Of a stretch of 64,000 nucleotides of DNA, positions 56,379 through 64,000 are shown piece by piece; positions within the stretch are counted from its first letter, which is position 1, and each line of letters begins with the position of its first letter. The DNA lies in assembly GCA_019118345.1 (NCBI GenBank), contig DWZD01000040.1, positions 124,001-188,000 of the forward strand, in the 5' to 3' direction. Source of the DNA: Candidatus Desulfovibrio intestinavium. GTDB taxonomy: Bacteria; Desulfobacterota; Desulfovibrionia; Desulfovibrionales; Desulfovibrionaceae. Under the pieces are notes generated by a model that did not search any database, was not told the origin of the DNA, and worked only from the letters and a program-made list of their open reading frames with translations. The translations under genes were made by a program, and so were the position numbers.

Positions 56379-57791
56379 ATGAAGTATCGGTTTTTCAAAT
56401 GCCTGGTAATGCTTGTCATGGCTTCGGCGGCATTCGGCCTTGGCGCCGGCATGGCCCATAGTCAAGAAAGGGGGAAAGCGAAAGGCCCGCTCCTGACCGT
56501 CAACGATACTGTCCGGGGCGTGCTGAAAAATCACCGCACGCTGATGAGCATCAAGGAAAACCGTACGGCCCTCGAGCACGAACTATCCAGGGCACGTGCG
56601 GGCTTCGGCCCTCGCGTGGACGTCGAGGGGAGCGCCGGCGTAGGCATCCTCAGCGACAACACCTCGCGCGGCATGAATCTGGACAACCAGATGCTGGGCG
56701 TCGGCAGCGTTTCTGCCAAACTCGTCCAGCCCATCTGGGACGGCTTTGCCACCCGCAGCCGGGTGCGCACCTCGCAGGCCACCCTGGATTCCGTCCGCCA
56801 CCGCGTCTTTGATACGGCAACAACGCTCAGCCTGGACGGCATCATTGCCCATATTGATCTCTTGCGCTGCCTCGAGCTGGTGCGGCTGGCCCGCGTCAAT
56901 GTGGAGCAGCATCAGTCCATTCTCGCGCAGGCGCGCGACCGGGTCGCCCTTGGGGCCGACACTCAGGCCGATGTGACCCAGGCGGAATCGCGTCTGCAGC
57001 GCGCCCTTTCCTCGCTGGCCGACGCGCAGGACAAGCTGCGGGTGGCCGCCGCCACCTACGCCCGCCTGACCGGCATTGATCCCGTGACCAGTCTGGAAAA
57101 GGTCGCCATGCCGCCGCACATGCCCAAAACCCCCGAAGAATTCCTCATGCTGGCCGAAAAGAACAATCCCAAGCTGGCCGCCTACCTGCAGGACATTCGT
57201 GCCGCCCGGGGCGAAAAGGAACTGGCCGAAGCCAACATGTACCCCTCGGTGCAGCTGGAAGCCGGCCCGGATTACAGCGACCGCGGCGGCAACCGCGAAC
57301 GCTGGGTCTACAGTTTTGACGTGCTGGGCACCGTGCGCTGGAACATCTTTAACAGCGGCGCCGACGTGGAAGGCATCCGCGCGGCCTCGGCCCGTGAACG
57401 GCAGGCCCGGCAAAACCTGTACGATTACATGGATACCCTGCGCCTGGACATGGAGTCCACCTGGAGCAACTATCAGGCTGCGCAGGAGCAGTACCGCCAT
57501 TACTCGGATGCCATGACGGCCAACCGGCAGACCCGTCAGGCCTATTACGAGCAGTTCCTGCTGGGCAGCCGCAGCCTGCTGGACGTGCTGGACTCGGAAA
57601 ACGAACTCTACAGCTCATCGACCTCGGCTGAAACCGCGCGCGGCAACATTCTTATCGGCGCCTACCGCCTCTATGCCCTTTCCGGAACGCTTCTGCCGCA
57701 CTTGAACATTCCGGCGGAACTGATTGCCGACGATCCCAAGACCGCTGCGCCGGTCAAGGGTGAAGAGTTTGATCTCGGCTGGTTCAAGTAG
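56379..57791 (+). CDS. TolC family outer-membrane efflux protein (LapE-like)
   Basis: 470 residues. Signal peptide (about 1-27, GLGAGMAHS) then two TolC repeats forming the outer-membrane barrel and periplasmic helical tunnel; helices such as LEHELSRARAGFGPRVDVEG, RVRTSQATLDSVRHRV and ARERQARQNLYDYMDTL are typical. YEQFLLGSRSLLDVLDSENE near the C-terminus is the family hallmark. With the ABC and HlyD genes downstream it forms a type I secretion system. It has its own strong promoter and lies 263 nt before the ABC gene; the gap has a GC-rich hairpin (57853-57872) but no T-tract. Confidence 0.93.
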   Translation: MKYRFFKCLVMLVMASAAFGLGAGMAHSQERGKAKGPLLTVNDTVRGVLKNHRTLMSIKENRTALEHELSRARAGFGPRVDVEGSAGVGILSDNTSRGMNLDNQMLGVGSVSAKLVQPIWDGFATRSRVRTSQATLDSVRHRVFDTATTLSLDGIIAHIDLLRCLELVRLARVNVEQHQSILAQARDRVALGADTQADVTQAESRLQRALSSLADAQDKLRVAAATYARLTGIDPVTSLEKVAMPPHMPKTPEEFLMLAEKNNPKLAAYLQDIRAARGEKELAEANMYPSVQLEAGPDYSDRGGNRERWVYSFDVLGTVRWNIFNSGADVEGIRAASARERQARQNLYDYMDTLRLDMESTWSNYQAAQEQYRHYSDAMTANRQTRQAYYEQFLLGSRSLLDVLDSENELYSSSTSAETARGNILIGAYRLYALSGTLLPHLNIPAELIADDPKTAAPVKGEEFDLGWFK

Positions 57792-58054
57792 CGGCCTGCG
57801 TCAGCCTGTCATGGCTGGTTCCGCGCTTGTTTCCGACCGAAGAAGATGGCGTGCGGGGGGGGCGTCCCCCGCCGTCAGGCAGTCCGGCACATGCTTAGTG
57901 CCGCGCCGTGCACCCAGACCGCCAATCCCGCTCCGAACCCACGGCATTGGCGTAGGCGGCAGCGCTTGTGCCCTCGCCGCCTGGGCCGGCATGCCGCGCC
58001 GCCACGCACGTCACCCTGCCACAGACACGCATGACCGCCGGGAAGGAGTCAGCC

Positions 58055-60322
58055 ATGCCGGAACCAGCTACTGAAAGCGCACAAACATGGGAACAGGGGG
58101 TTGATGGTCTGCGCCCTTCCGACGTTGACTTCATGCCGCCCCTGCTGCACAGCCTGGCCACGCTCTGCCGCCTTCGCAACAGGCATCTGTCGCCCCAGTA
58201 CCTGCTGGCCAACCTCTCGGGAAGCCGGGTTTCCGCACAGGCCTGCCTGCGCGTTGCCCGGCGGGCGGGTCTCGGCGGTTCCATTCTCTACCGGCCTCGT
58301 CTGGAGGAAATCTCCAATCTGACGCTGCCCTGCATGCTTCTGCTCGCTCATGACCGCAGCTGTGTGCTGACGCGGGTTTTTCGCAAGGACGTTGCCCCCG
58401 CTCCGGCGGAACAGACCGAGCACGACGCGACCGGCGAAAGCGCCACGACGGCCCGCTGGTTTGCCGAAGTCATCTTTCCCGAGTCCGGGGAAACGCCGCA
58501 GGAAGTGGCGCTGGAAACCCTGCAGGAAGAATATTCAGGCTACGCTCTTTACATTGCCGTATTGACCCGCCCGCAGCAGCATGTGGAAAAGCTGCGCCTG
58601 ATCCGGGGCAAGCGCTGGTTCTGGGATGTGCTGCGCTATTATGCCCCCATTTACCGGCATGTGGCGCTAGCCAGCGTCATCATCAATCTGGTGGCCGTGG
58701 CCAGCCCCCTCTTCGCCATGAACGTATATGATCGCGTGGTGCCCAACAATGCCATAGAAACGCTCTGGGTGCTGGCTTCCGGGGTGCTGATCATCTATCT
58801 TTTCGACTTTCTCCTGCGGACGCTGCGCACTCATTTTGTGGATGTGGCCGGTCGCAATGCGGATGTCGTGCTTTCCAGCCGGCTCATGGACAAGGTGCTG
58901 ACCATGCGTCTGGAAAACAAGCCCGAGTCCACGGGCGCACTGGTCAACAATCTGCGCGAGTTTGAACAGCTCAGGGAATTTTTCAGCTCATCGTCGCTGC
59001 TGGCCTGCATCGACGTGCCCTTCCTCATCATCTTCCTTCTGCTCATTGCCTTCATTGCCGGCCCCATGGTCTTGCTGCCGATGGCCGCCGTGCCCGCCCT
59101 CATTCTCTGGGGCATCTGCCTGCAGACCCTGGCCCGCCGTTGCGCGGAACAGACCTACAAGCAGAACATGCAGAAAAATGCCCTGCTGGTGGAGATGGTC
59201 AACGGACTCGAAACCATCAAGGCCTGTCAGGCGGAAAGCCGCATGCAGAAACTCTGGGAAGCCGTGGTCGGCCTTTCCGCCCGCTCCACGGCGGAATCCC
59301 GGCGCTATAACAGCCTTGCCGTTACCGGCTCCCTTTTTGTGACCCAGCTAGTCACCGTAGGCATGATCATCTGGGGCGTCTACCGCATTGCCGACGGCCT
59401 GATGACCATGGGAGCGCTCATCGGCTGCAATATCCTCGTGGGGCGTACCATGGCGCCCCTGATGCAGGTGGCTTCCCTGCTGACCCGCTTCCAGAATTCG
59501 CGCATGGCCCTGCAGGCCCTGGATCTGCTCATGGAACTGCCCTCAGAGAATCAGAGCGAGCAATCCAACATGGACTTCGGCGAGCTGGAGCCGTCCTTCA
59601 CCCTACGCGACGTTTCCTTCGCCTATCCCAACGCCATGCAGATGGCCGTGGAGGATGTCAATCTCGTCATCCGCCCGGGCGACCGCATCGGCATCATCGG
59701 CAGCATGGGTTCGGGCAAGAGCACCCTGGCCAAGCTGCTGACAGGCCTCTACCTGCCGCAGAAAGGCAGCATCAAATTCGGCAATGTGGATTTGCGCCAG
59801 CTGCCCACCACGGAGCTGCGCAGCCGGATCGGCGTGCTGCCGCAGGATGTGGTGCTCTTTTATGGAACCATCCGGGAAAATATCGTCCTGGGCGATCCCT
59901 CCATCAATGATCACATGGTATTCCGGGCAGCGGCCCTGGCCGGAATCATGGATTTTGTGCGCAACAATCCGGCGGGCTTCGGCGCGCAGGTGGGCGAACA
60001 GGGCAAGGCCCTTTCCGGCGGCCAGCGGCAGGCCGTGGCCCTGGCGCGTGCGCTGGTGCGTGACCCCGACGTGCTGGTGCTGGACGAACCGACCAGCAAC
60101 ATGGACACGGATTCGGAATTGCGCCTGCAACAACGCCTCATGCAGGCTTCCCGGGGACGCGTCCTCATCCTGGTGACCCATCGGCTCAGCATGTTGCGCA
60201 TGGTGGACAAGCTGCTGGTCATGGATCGCGGCCGGGTGCGGATGTTCGGCCCGCGTGACGCCATTCTCAAGCGCCTCAAGGACGAACAGGCGCAAAGGAG
60301 GGTCGCCCATGCCCAGGGATAA
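58055..60322 (+). CDS. LapB-type type I secretion ABC transporter
   Basis: 755 residues. N-terminal C39-like domain without the catalytic Cys (residues 20-150; LLHSLATLCRLRNRHLSPQY), which in this class binds the substrate rather than cutting it; membrane domain with six helices (about 200-460); and an ATPase with Walker A GSMGSGKS (549-556), signature ALSGGQRQAVALARAL and Walker B VLVLDEPTSNMD. Exporters like this secrete large RTX adhesins of the LapA type. AAGGAG precedes the ATG. It overlaps the HlyD gene by 14 nt. Confidence 0.92.
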   Translation: MPEPATESAQTWEQGVDGLRPSDVDFMPPLLHSLATLCRLRNRHLSPQYLLANLSGSRVSAQACLRVARRAGLGGSILYRPRLEEISNLTLPCMLLLAHDRSCVLTRVFRKDVAPAPAEQTEHDATGESATTARWFAEVIFPESGETPQEVALETLQEEYSGYALYIAVLTRPQQHVEKLRLIRGKRWFWDVLRYYAPIYRHVALASVIINLVAVASPLFAMNVYDRVVPNNAIETLWVLASGVLIIYLFDFLLRTLRTHFVDVAGRNADVVLSSRLMDKVLTMRLENKPESTGALVNNLREFEQLREFFSSSSLLACIDVPFLIIFLLLIAFIAGPMVLLPMAAVPALILWGICLQTLARRCAEQTYKQNMQKNALLVEMVNGLETIKACQAESRMQKLWEAVVGLSARSTAESRRYNSLAVTGSLFVTQLVTVGMIIWGVYRIADGLMTMGALIGCNILVGRTMAPLMQVASLLTRFQNSRMALQALDLLMELPSENQSEQSNMDFGELEPSFTLRDVSFAYPNAMQMAVEDVNLVIRPGDRIGIIGSMGSGKSTLAKLLTGLYLPQKGSIKFGNVDLRQLPTTELRSRIGVLPQDVVLFYGTIRENIVLGDPSINDHMVFRAAALAGIMDFVRNNPAGFGAQVGEQGKALSGGQRQAVALARALVRDPDVLVLDEPTSNMDTDSELRLQQRLMQASRGRVLILVTHRLSMLRMVDKLLVMDRGRVRMFGPRDAILKRLKDEQAQRRVAHAQG

Positions 60323-61979
60323 TGCACGCCCCGATGCGGGAAAGCCCGACAGGCCTTCCCCCGGGGACATCTTTGCCCCCATTCCCCTTGATCTCCTGCC
60401 GGGGGCGGACGAACCCGAAGAAAGGACGCGCCCGTCCCTGCTGCGCCGGTTCACGGCCTTTCTGAAACTGCTGTTCATAGGCGATGCCGGGCATGAACAG
60501 CAGCCGTCCAGCACGCTGGGTGAGCGCCTGAAGGAAGGATCCAGACGCATGGCGGCCTCGGGCCAGCGCATGAGCAAGAAGGAACTCTTTGCCGCGCTGG
60601 ATGCCCCGCTCAACGGACTGTCGCCGGATGACATCCAGTACGCCGGCGAGGTGGATGCGGCCATGTCCCGCCGCCCCACATTCAGCGCACGTGCCCTGTC
60701 CGTGGCCGTTGCCCTGCTGTTTGCGGTGCTGCTCGTCTGGGCGGCCGTTGCGTCGCTTGACGAGGTCACCCATGCCGAAGGTTCCGTGGTGGGTTCGCGC
60801 CGCACCCAGTCCATTTCCAATCTGGAAGGCGGCATCCTGCGGGCCATACTGGTCAATGAAGGCGACATTGTGGAAAAGGGGCAGATCATTGCCCAGCTGG
60901 AAAACGTCATGGCCGAGAGTTCCTACCGGGACGCCCTGTACAAGCTGGTGGAGCATCGCCTTGCCATTCTGCGCCTGGAAGCCATGCTGGAGGACGCCGA
61001 ACCCCAGTTCCCCAGCAATATTGCGGAATTTCTGAATCTATTACTGGGGGAAACGCCGGACGATCAACTGGCGACGCGCACCGCCCAAATTATCGAGGAT
61101 CAGCGCAATACCTGGAAGGCCCAGTCCTCCAAGTTCCAGTCCGAAATTGCCGTGCTGGAATCCCAGGTCGCCCAGCGCCAGCAGGAAGCGGCTGAGCAGC
61201 AGGCCCGCAAAACGCAGCTGGAAAGCAGCCTTGCGCTGGAGACGGAACAACGCAACACGGCCAAGCGTCTGCTGGATCGCAACAATTATTCCCGCATGGA
61301 TTATCTGGGGCTGGAACAGAAGGTCACCCAGACCGAAGGGGAAATCGCCATGCTGGCCGCCGCCATTCCCAAGACGCAGGCCATGCTGGAGGAAGCCCGC
61401 CTGCGCATCAACAGCCGCAAGGCCGAGGAACAGCTGACCATCAGTCAGGAAATCAACAAGCGGCGCACCGAGCTGGCCTCAGTGCGGGAAACGCTGACCG
61501 CCGGCGGCGACCGGGTCACCCGTACCGAGGTGCGCAGCCCGGTACGCGGCAGCATCAAGCAGATACTCATCAATACGGTGGGCGGCGTGGTCAAGCCGGG
61601 CGAAGCCATCATGGACATTGTGCCCATGGACGAAACCCTGCTCGTGGAGGCCCGGGTGCGCCCGCAGGATGTGGCTTTCCTGCGTCCCGGCCAGCCGGTC
61701 ATGATCAAGGTTTCGGCCTATGACTTTTCCATCTATGGCGGCCTTGCCGGCAAGCTGGAATCCATCAGCGCGGATACCATCGAGGACAAGAAGGGGGACT
61801 TTTACTATCTTGTCAAGGTGCGTACCCGTGAGACGACCATACGCCACAATGACGAAGTGCTGCCCATCATTCCGGGCATGCTTGTCATGGCCGACATCAT
61901 CATCGGCAAGAAAACCGTCCTTGACTATATTCTCAAGCCGGTCATGAAGGCCAAGCAAAACGCCATGCGAGAACGCTAG
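60309..61979 (+). CDS. HlyD-family membrane fusion protein (LapC-like)
   Basis: 556 residues. Bridges the ABC exporter and TolC in the periplasm. One membrane helix at 128-149 (SVAVALLFAVLLVWAAVASL); then a lipoyl-type half (SNLEGGILRAILVNEGDIV), a long coiled coil (about 200-410), the second half (VRSPVRGSIKQILINTVGG) and a C-terminal RPGQPVMIKVSAYDFSIYGG segment. The N-terminal cytoplasmic part (125 residues, acidic and Pro-rich, then helical) is much longer than in HlyD or LapC. AAAGGAGGG precedes the ATG. Confidence 0.92.
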   Translation: MPRDNARPDAGKPDRPSPGDIFAPIPLDLLPGADEPEERTRPSLLRRFTAFLKLLFIGDAGHEQQPSSTLGERLKEGSRRMAASGQRMSKKELFAALDAPLNGLSPDDIQYAGEVDAAMSRRPTFSARALSVAVALLFAVLLVWAAVASLDEVTHAEGSVVGSRRTQSISNLEGGILRAILVNEGDIVEKGQIIAQLENVMAESSYRDALYKLVEHRLAILRLEAMLEDAEPQFPSNIAEFLNLLLGETPDDQLATRTAQIIEDQRNTWKAQSSKFQSEIAVLESQVAQRQQEAAEQQARKTQLESSLALETEQRNTAKRLLDRNNYSRMDYLGLEQKVTQTEGEIAMLAAAIPKTQAMLEEARLRINSRKAEEQLTISQEINKRRTELASVRETLTAGGDRVTRTEVRSPVRGSIKQILINTVGGVVKPGEAIMDIVPMDETLLVEARVRPQDVAFLRPGQPVMIKVSAYDFSIYGGLAGKLESISADTIEDKKGDFYYLVKVRTRETTIRHNDEVLPIIPGMLVMADIIIGKKTVLDYILKPVMKAKQNAMRER

Positions 61980-62035: not shown

Positions 62036-64000
62036 ATGCGGAAATGGAGTTACCGACCCTTCCTGCCCCTGCTGCTCGCTCTGGGCGTCATGCTGCTCGT
62101 GCTTTACGGCCTCATGTTCAAACTGCGGGACGACGCCCGCGCGCAGGCGCTGGCCGAGGCCCGACAGCAGCTTGCTGCCCATGCCGCGGCGGGGCAGAGT
62201 CTGACGCGCTTCTGGCTGGACACGCGGCGCAATGCCGTCCAGGCCCTGATCCGGCAGGACAATCCGCGCCTGCTGGCGGCCCGGATCAAGGAGGCTGCCC
62301 TGCCCTCCCTGTTGATCCAGACCGTCGCCCGGGAAGCATGGCAGGGGGAAATCCGCAATCTTGCCGGACTGGCCGACGCACAGCAGCTGCAACAAATGCG
62401 GGCGCTGGCCCCGCTCATCAGCCAGTTCCAGCGCCGGCTTGCCGCCTTCCTGATCCAGCAGGATCTGGCAGGGGCGGCCCTGCTCGACCAGAATTTCACG
62501 CCCCTGATTCAGGCGGGGCAGGAATGCCTGCCCTCCCTGCAGCGCAACCTGCGCCAGCGGCATGAGCAAACGCCCCTGACGCTTATGCGCATCCTGCCCA
62601 TTCGCCTGCTGGACGACAGCATTCTCCTCGATATCGTTTACCCGCTCATGGATGCCGAAGACGCCTCGCCTGACAGAAAGGCGCTGGGCTACCTGTGGAT
62701 AACCTGCGACATTTCCTTTCTTCTGCAGGATTTGCAGAAGGCCGCCGGGCCGGATACCCGCAACATCCTCATGCGCCGGGAAGGCAATTCGGTGCAGACG
62801 GTCTACTGGACAACGCGCCCGGTCATGCGCGAAGGCGTCTGGCCTTCCGGCCTGGAAAAGGGGGAGCTTGTCGGCATCACGCTCAAGGACACCGACGAAG
62901 AACGGGAAATCGTGGCCATCGGCAAGCCTGTTCCCGAGAGCGACCTCTTTGCCGTGACGACCTGCGACAAGGCTGTTCTCTATCAGCAAAACGGCGGCCT
63001 GCACTGGCAGTATCTGGCCCTTGCCGGCGCCCTCTACCTTTGCCTGACCGTGGTGCTGCTGCTGATCTTCCGCTGGAACCTCACGCGAGAGTTCCGGCAG
63101 GAGCAGCAGGACATACGGCGGCTCTATACCCGGCTATCCCAGCAGCGCTTCTTGCTGGATACGGTCATCAGCGCCATGAATTCGGCACTGGTGCTCATTG
63201 ACAGCGAGCGCAGAATCGCCTTCGCCAATGCCGATTTTCTCCGCCTTGTCCAGCATGAGGGCGATATTCGCAACCTGCCGGTGCACCATCTTCCGGGTTT
63301 TCTGGCCCGCAGCCTGGAACTGCACGTGATGGGCGTGCTGGGTTCGGGGCAGGAAATGACGGATACCGAGGACATCATCATTGACGGGCAGTTGCGGCAT
63401 TATTATGTCCATTGTCTGCCCTACGAACTGGGAGAGAGCGAACTCCGCAGCGTGATCGTCGTCTACCGGGACGATACCGAGCGCGTGGAAGCCCAGAAGC
63501 GCGCCTCTGCCGCCCTGCAGCAATGCGTAAAAGCCTTCACCCATGCCGTGGAGGGGGTTGACCCCTACCTGCGCGGCCATTCCGGCAAGATGGCGGAATT
63601 GTCCCTGCAACTGCTGGCCTGGCTCGGCAAGGATGATCCGGACACGGTGGCCACCCTGCGCATTGCCGCCAGCCTCTCGCAGCTGGGCATGATCCGCCTG
63701 CCGCATAATCTGCTGACCAAGAGCGGCAAGCTCCTGCCGGAAGAACGCCGCCAGATGGAACGTCACGTGGAATATACCGCCGAGGCCATCAGCGGCCTCG
63801 ATTTCGGTTTGCCCGTTCAGGAAACCATCCTGCAGATGCACGAACGTCTGGACGGTTCCGGCTATCCCCGGCACCTTCAGGGCGACGCCATTCTGCCGCA
63901 GGCACGCATCCTGGCCGTGGCCAATACCTTCTGCGCCCTGGTGCGCCCCCGCTCCTACCGGACGCACTTCGAAGTGGGCGCGGCGCTGGCCATCCTGCGG
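62036..64000 (+). CDS. Membrane PAS protein with degenerate HD-GYP domain (partial, DvhD-like candidate)
   Basis: 655 residues in the window, no stop reached. Two membrane helices (about 8-28 and 326-346) flank a ~295-residue periplasmic domain, then a linker helix, a PAS-like domain (about 370-480) and an HD-GYP-like domain from about 500. The HD-GYP metal ligands are partly lost: H515 (RGHSGKM) and H577 remain, but the HD pair reads SLSQLG (S548, Q549), the HHE motif reads MHE (H602, E603) and the later Asp is N630 (AVANTF); DGSGYP is kept. It is probably not an active phosphodiesterase and may bind c-di-GMP. It starts 56 nt after the HlyD gene with CGGAG upstream. Confidence 0.85.
   Translation, partial: MRKWSYRPFLPLLLALGVMLLVLYGLMFKLRDDARAQALAEARQQLAAHAAAGQSLTRFWLDTRRNAVQALIRQDNPRLLAARIKEAALPSLLIQTVAREAWQGEIRNLAGLADAQQLQQMRALAPLISQFQRRLAAFLIQQDLAGAALLDQNFTPLIQAGQECLPSLQRNLRQRHEQTPLTLMRILPIRLLDDSILLDIVYPLMDAEDASPDRKALGYLWITCDISFLLQDLQKAAGPDTRNILMRREGNSVQTVYWTTRPVMREGVWPSGLEKGELVGITLKDTDEEREIVAIGKPVPESDLFAVTTCDKAVLYQQNGGLHWQYLALAGALYLCLTVVLLLIFRWNLTREFRQEQQDIRRLYTRLSQQRFLLDTVISAMNSALVLIDSERRIAFANADFLRLVQHEGDIRNLPVHHLPGFLARSLELHVMGVLGSGQEMTDTEDIIIDGQLRHYYVHCLPYELGESELRSVIVVYRDDTERVEAQKRASAALQQCVKAFTHAVEGVDPYLRGHSGKMAELSLQLLAWLGKDDPDTVATLRIAASLSQLGMIRLPHNLLTKSGKLLPEERRQMERHVEYTAEAISGLDFGLPVQETILQMHERLDGSGYPRHLQGDAILPQARILAVANTFCALVRPRSYRTHFEVGAALAILR

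Follow-up and report, generated by a model that had tools for sequence, protein, structure and literature searches.

RESULTS

An exporter locus ending in a degenerate HD-GYP gene

The window, meaning the whole 64,000-nucleotide stretch that we analyzed, corresponds to positions 124001-188000 of contig C24 in a 2.53-Mb genome of 54 contigs. Its distal part carries type I secretion genes followed by the gene that we call D1, in the order TolC, ABC, HlyD, D1 and all on the same strand, so that D1 does directly follow LapB- and HlyD-like genes, as an earlier note on this DNA had claimed.

56379..57791, plus strand: TolC-family outer-membrane channel in the LapE/DvhE position (TIGR01844, 227 bits, cut-off 225; Pfam OEP)
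57968..60322, plus strand: LapB/LssB-type type I secretion ABC permease/ATPase (TIGR03375, 855 bits, cut-off 693)
60255..61979, plus strand: HlyD-family adaptor in the LapC position (TIGR01843, 381 bits, cut-off 209)
62036..64000, plus strand: D1, putative DvhD-family receptor with dCache, PAS and degenerate HD-GYP domains (Pfam, PDB sequence match, predicted fold, residue mapping)
63536..64000, plus strand: degenerate HD-GYP domain of D1, from approximately residue 501 (Pfam HD_5, residues 503-654; mapping to DvhD)

The true start of the ABC gene is probably downstream of 57968, and that of the HlyD gene is probably later than the GTG at 60255, given that this GTG overlaps the ABC open reading frame (ORF) upstream. 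The D1 ORF opens with an ATG at 62036, preceded by GGAG and separated from the HlyD gene by 56 nt, and encodes 693 amino acids (aa), 655 of them in the window; the gene ends 117 nt past the window (L005:8117). A 481-aa ORF without visible relation lies 3' of D1 on the opposite strand. The ABC gene of the window was the only LssB-type match above the family cut-off in a scan of the genome. No LapG-like gene is found between HlyD and D1, in line with the earlier note, and the sole PF06035 match of the genome is on contig C17. Visual inspection of ORF lists for the 32 kb beyond the window, with minimum lengths of 150 and 200 aa, revealed neither a protease of this type nor a large adhesin.

D1 resembles the dead c-di-GMP receptor DvhD

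In D. vulgaris Hildenborough, the adhesin protease DvhG is under the control of DvhD (DVU1020, BfsD), a catalytically inactive c-di-GMP receptor (PMC13090378). In the DvhD metal site SQ replaces HD, and Met and Asn replace the double His; no hydrolysis was detected in vitro with any ion tested, and the protein binds c-di-GMP at ~0.1 uM and 3'3'-cGAMP at ~0.5 uM (PMC13090378). The best PDB sequence matches of D1 were the DvhD cytoplasmic constructs 9rc0 (E 1.3e-59) and 9rbz (2.8e-49), with other HD-GYP proteins far behind (5z7c, 8.2e-22; 4mcw, 2e-16). Pfam matches above cut-off comprised HD_5 (3.2e-38), which bears out the assignment of the C-terminal part to HD-GYP, and PAS_4 (3.6e-6). A LapD homologue was considered and rejected, given that Pfam finds only PAS and HD above cut-off, without HAMP, GGDEF or EAL.

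An AlphaFold2 model of D1 (654 residues, 30-row alignment, pLDDT 84.6, pTM 0.51) is predicted to run from a long N-terminal helix through an alpha/beta domain, a second long helix and a PAS domain to HD-GYP. The top five rows of a fold search with this model were DvhD chains (TMt 0.70 for 9rc0 and 0.73-0.76 for 9rbz), and 9rc2, the DvhD periplasmic domain, ranked ninth. The periplasmic dCache domain of D1 aligned with 9rc2 in Foldseek at TMt 0.69 and E 4.6e-8, with 13% identity. Identity of this domain to 10 other D1s, and likewise to 14 undivided-type DvhDs, is ~17%.

The residues that the earlier note read as signs of degeneracy, S548-Q549, M601 (in M-H-E) and N630, are all present, as is DGSGYP with Y610. 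By script mapping, the metal-site columns pair with DvhD as S548/Q549 with S559/Q560, M601 with M612, H602 with N613, and N630 with N641. Of the eight canonical c-di-GMP contacts of DvhD, five are identical in D1 (Y511=Y523, L566=L577, Y610=Y621, R639=R650 and Y641=Y652), two are conservative (R571 for K582 and L635 for M646), and one is changed (K657 for E668). At the bridging c-di-GMP site, D1 keeps the proline (P556=P567), and K520 and R569 are replaced by V508 and N558. This site does not appear to define the family, given that Lys is absent from the K520 column in all of 75 other DvhD-family rows (DvhD excluded; table computed before 26 distant loci were removed); in 12 rows this column is Arg, and 65/75 keep the proline at the P567 column. 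With a dead metal site, kept contacts and the folds of DvhD, D1 is most likely a c-di-GMP-binding switch of the DvhD family. Sequence and predicted fold, in both of which DvhD is the best match, thus support the earlier note, which saw in D1 a c-di-GMP receptor without catalytic activity, like the one in D. vulgaris and not related to LapD.

The protease, a second receptor and an adhesin lie elsewhere in the genome

The absence of any adhesin or LapG gene would have spoken against a Lap-like role for D1; the genome has one Peptidase_C93 gene and an RTX adhesin with PAAG. The protease gene, the only match to PF06035 (4.1e-19), lies directly ahead of another DvhD-family gene, D2, with a gap of 3 nt. 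A DCED stretch in its product fits, by eye, the catalytic Cys and calcium residues of DvhG, which are D316, C317 and E318 (PMC13090378).

L008:12198-14270, minus strand: D2, DvhD-family paralogue, 690 aa (best PDB match DvhD, 2.3e-44)
L017:11825-15712, contig C42: RTX adhesin, 1295-aa ORF (Big_9, VCBS, 5 RTX stretches)

The NCBIfam model retention_LapA had zero matches in the genome, and the adhesin was located via its RTX repeats. Its N-terminus contains a BapA-prefix-like region (weak, below cut-off) and the sequence LMPAAG. PAAG was present in 30/30 adhesin N-termini examined, the window genome's own included; of the 47 genomes with a match, 30 yielded N-terminus loci. Four genomes, those whose N-terminus is most similar (81-84%), have longer open frames at this position (1580 to 4651 aa), and repeats in the adhesin of the window genome could have been collapsed in the draft assembly. 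The ORF at L017:11825-15712 also has a run of near-identical DGDDDTPTPPDP units.

GGDEF matches above cut-off number 11 in this genome. At L018:6131-16011 on contig C28 there is another set of type I secretion genes (ABC, HlyD, TolC); the gene beside it on the opposite strand encodes a 1107-aa protein whose RTX-like matches stay below cut-off and which has no Pfam hit at E 0.01. This cluster was set aside as the exporter partner, its ATPase scoring 381 bits against the LssB cut-off of 693.

D1 and D2 arose by duplication

In the loci that we fetched, an uninterrupted HlyD-DvhG-DvhD run occurs in other Desulfovibrionaceae, Desulfomicrobium, Halodesulfovibrio and Alphaproteobacteria, and several loci have the order TolC-DvhG-DvhD. 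The arrangement of HlyD-D1 without DvhG, plus DvhG-D2 elsewhere, was found in the genus of the window and in G001 and G089. The two halves share one locus in Desulfovibrio sp. RGIG1974 (L107), G161, G162 and G203, and the exporter genes stand back to back with DvhG-D2 in G146, G011 and G167, with D1 absent there. In the alphaproteobacterial runs (L116-L159; Kiloniellaceae, Rhodospirillales and others), the Asp that is lost in Desulfovibrio receptors is often kept.

Before any tree was built, 35 of 102 rows (near-duplicates and distant rows) were dropped, and a further 26 distant loci were later removed ahead of a 147-row set, from which 49 rows were hand-picked for a careful tree. Support in this tree was 100/99 for D1 and 100/100 for D2; D1 grouped with the Bilophila-type HlyD-DvhG-DvhD row at 100/99, and all of these with D2 at 100/98. 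The D2 stem branch is long (0.95). An initial fasttree had drawn the long-branch alphaproteobacterial rows L160 and L162 into D1, a placement that was not retained. The tree places the D1/D2 duplication inside the Desulfovibrionaceae and before the origin of the genus, given that G001 and G089 have both copies. Among the D2-clade rows outside the genus (L085-L089, tabulated before the 26 distant loci were removed), both the GYP tyrosine and the Y523-equivalent are kept in 4/5, which dates the loss of the D2 tyrosines to a time after the duplication. The exception, L087, lost both, and D1 was not found in the genome with this altered D2.

The two receptors differ across the genus

We searched 79 genomes of the genus for the receptor at E 1e-30 or better and found it in 58. 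PF06035 was present in 56/58 receptor-bearing genomes and 0/21 of those without a receptor; the two exceptions, G149 and G182, are 63% and 74% complete. Among the 55 genomes with completeness of 90% or more and contamination of 5% or less, the receptor and PF06035 were each found in 41. Exactly one PF06035 match was present in 50/56 genomes, with two or three in G164, G172, G192, G194, G195 and G198. The adhesin N-terminus was found in 46/58 receptor-bearing genomes versus 1/21 without. ORFs or fragments with this retention-like adhesin N-terminus are numerous in some genomes, for example G199 (10), G163 (9), and G156 and G200 (8 each), against a single PF06035 match, and in such members of the genus many adhesins may depend on a single protease.

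For alignment and tree, we took the 104 genus receptor ORFs whose profile match extends to the HD-GYP end, comprising 47 D1 and 57 D2. D1 adjoins HlyD in 45/47 copies, the other two ending at the edge of the stretch read, and DvhG is beside none of the 45 copies with readable neighbors. D2 adjoins DvhG in 50/57 and HlyD in 0; the D2-type copies not beside DvhG are those of G149 (at a contig edge), G152, G158, G209, G212 and G217 and the second copy in G214. In G152, G158, G209, G212 and G217 the DvhG gene is apart on another contig, and neither receptor adjoins it.

The GYP tyrosine is present in 40/47 D1 copies versus 0/56 readable D2 copies (11 of these 56 being alignment gaps at that column), and the Y523-equivalent in 46/47 versus 8/57; on the tree these patterns need 2 and 4 changes, respectively, and so reflect few events rather than many independent ones. 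The R650-equivalent is kept in both (45/47 D1 and 57/57 D2), as is W60, a Trp at the start of the periplasmic domain (46/47 and 55/57). Identity of the HD-GYP domain within each clade is 0.69 for D2 (9 rows) and 0.70 for D1 (10 rows).

By genome, 38 of the 58 combine a D1 whose site is intact with a D2 whose site is altered. Ten have D2 only, among them G188, with a D1 fragment at a contig end, and G200, a single contig. In seven (G152, G158, G164, G172, G209, G212 and G217) both sites are altered and D1 has lost most c-di-GMP contacts; these eroded copies led us to drop the idea of a strictly invariant D1 site. Two genomes have D1 only in the loci read, with D2 cut by a contig end in G150, and one has two D2-type copies; the search settings of the census had missed D2 in eight genomes, and other such misses are possible. 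These eight (G176, G177, G180, G181, G183, G185, G186 and G187; L279-L285 and L287) were at one stage taken as D1 only, until D2 was found there beside DvhG. Their D2 leaves the PAS part of the profile unmatched, with Ala in place of the GYP tyrosine and Asn or Thr at the Y652-equivalent.

DISCUSSION

Two DvhD-type receptors with one protease

In this study, we find that the window's D1 has a paralogue, D2, beside the only DvhG-type protease gene of the genome. With a single DvhG, one exporter of the LapB type and an adhesin that has the cleavage motif, the simplest circuit is that of D. vulgaris, operating in trans. We consider it probable that the Dvh system of the genus is split, with D1 as the c-di-GMP reader that acts in trans on DvhG and D2 as a partner or holder of the protease. 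According to this model, a single ancestral receptor was duplicated; D1 would have stayed with the exporter with its messenger site mostly kept, and D2 would mostly have stayed with the protease. In the genus, the D2 site would then have been remodeled, losing the GYP Tyr and usually the Y523-equivalent while keeping the Arg650-equivalent. At high c-di-GMP, the D1 HD-GYP dimer would bind the messenger without cutting it and the stalk helices would splay, after which the periplasmic dCache domains of D1 would restrain DvhG in trans and the adhesin would remain plugged in TolC. At low c-di-GMP, DvhG would be free to cut at PAAG, and the adhesin would be shed. The input to D2, as partner or holder of DvhG, would be weaker or different. 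Given that the D1 site is mostly kept and the D2 site remodeled, c-di-GMP is most likely read by D1 rather than D2; D2 could still retain nucleotide binding, as its R650-equivalent is kept in 57/57 copies. A rather unlikely variant would make D2 the DvhG-binding half, lacking the c-di-GMP tyrosines, with D1 reading c-di-GMP and possibly a D1:D2 heterodimer relaying the signal to the protease. Several features weigh against the split model. The periplasmic domain through which the window's D1 would contact DvhG is very divergent (~17% identity), and the bridging-site columns K520 and R569 and the contact column E668 are replaced in D1. The six D2-type copies away from DvhG lower our confidence in the model, and in five of the seven genomes with both sites altered neither receptor adjoins the protease gene. 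The R650-equivalent kept in D2, the altered D2 of L087 with D1 not found in its genome, and the small number of tyrosine-loss events also count against it. The existence of 10 genomes with D2 only and 7 with both sites altered indicates that a D1 able to read c-di-GMP is not needed everywhere to retain the system.

We considered other accounts of the pair, the most serious being that both receptors restrain the one DvhG independently and D2 reads another signal, such as a different dinucleotide, a dCache ligand or a PAS input. We hold this to be possible but clearly less probable than the split system. In its favor, the D2 copies form long open frames, the R650-equivalent is retained in 57/57, their HD-GYP identity within the clade equals that of D1 (0.69 vs 0.70), 10 genomes have D2 only, and DvhD itself binds 3'3'-cGAMP at ~0.5 uM (PMC13090378). 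However, the residues that D2 has lost are ones that touch c-di-GMP in the DvhD crystal, and the PAS part that might supply an input is unmatched in 8 genus genomes; no alternative ligand of D2 is known to us. D2 could also be decaying, which would leave D1 as the sole working DvhD. The GYP Tyr is absent in all 56 readable genus copies of D2 (11 of them gaps at that column), and the unmatched PAS parts in those 8 genomes and the long D2 stem branch (0.95) would also fit decay, but the zero internal stops among the matches listed, the conserved Arg in 57/57 copies and the retention of D2 without D1 in 10 genomes make this improbable.

The position of D1, beside HlyD in 45/47 copies and beside DvhG in 0, together with the very divergent periplasmic domain of the window's D1, could also be read as a sign that D1 no longer acts on DvhG and instead controls the adjoining exporter, for example through gating of secretion by c-di-GMP. 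Against this stand the HlyD-DvhG-DvhD run of the nearest undivided relative (G073, Bilophila-type) and of the outgroups, and the retention of W60 in 46/47 D1 and 55/57 D2 copies. To our knowledge, no receptor of the DvhD kind gates secretion, and we regard such a role as quite unlikely. That D1 is an active HD-GYP phosphodiesterase near the secretion genes by chance is hardly credible: the HD_5 fold and DGSGYP are kept, but D1 carries the same substitutions as DvhD at the HD pair, at the first His of HHE and at the Asp position 630, and hydrolysis by DvhD was not seen whichever ion was supplied (PMC13090378).

Significance

Membership of D1 in the DvhD family is ordinary in itself. A 2024 PNAS paper reportedly reconstituted the D. 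vulgaris system, and both the receptor type and its role have already been published for that organism (PMC13090378; PMC11784015). The 2026 structure paper, which inspected the neighborhoods of 78 homologues, does not mention a paralog, "two DvhD" or a "second receptor" in its main text (PMC13090378). Our full-text literature searches, some of them covering the first 20 papers listed, found no published account of two DvhD-type receptors in one genome, and a duplication with unequal messenger sites appears to be undescribed within the literature searched. Such a duplication, which is spread through the genus and in which one copy mostly keeps and the other loses the contacts to the messenger, sets the sensing part apart from the protease-linked part, and the natural variants (D1 with D2, D2 only, and both eroded) allow tests of the coupling between receptor and protease. 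How DvhD restrains DvhG is described as "hitherto unknown" in the Fig. 9 legend of the structure paper, and the DvhD mutants reported there are R650A, Y652A/R653A, P567T, M646A and K520E, with a GYP Tyr mutant not seen among them (PMC13090378). The findings bear on surface attachment by gut and rumen members among the named relatives, and single-receptor models built on D. vulgaris should not be transferred unchanged to the window's genus, which named relatives in the same clades indicate to be Desulfovibrio.

Comparison with known systems

Active HD-GYP phosphodiesterases such as PmGH (4mcw, 4mdz) share with D1 the HD-GYP fold, the GYP Tyr and the Arg and Tyr of the nucleotide site, but their metal ligands are replaced in D1. 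Like LapD of Pseudomonas fluorescens, D1 would be a dead-enzyme membrane receptor that controls a LapG-type protease and thereby adhesin release; LapD is built from a LapD/MoxY periplasmic domain and HAMP-GGDEF-EAL (PMC13090378), whereas D1 has none of these and its predicted periplasmic fold is dCache-like. The closest counterpart is DvhD, with which D1 shares the dCache-PAS-HD-GYP order and folds, the change of HD to SQ, the Met and Asn, nearly all canonical contacts and a gene position after LapB/LapC-type exporter genes. D1 differs from DvhD in the replaced Lys and Arg of the bridging site and in a periplasmic domain only ~13% identical, and its locus differs from that of DvhD in that the DvhG gene is absent between HlyD and D1, with a second paralogue standing beside DvhG on another contig.
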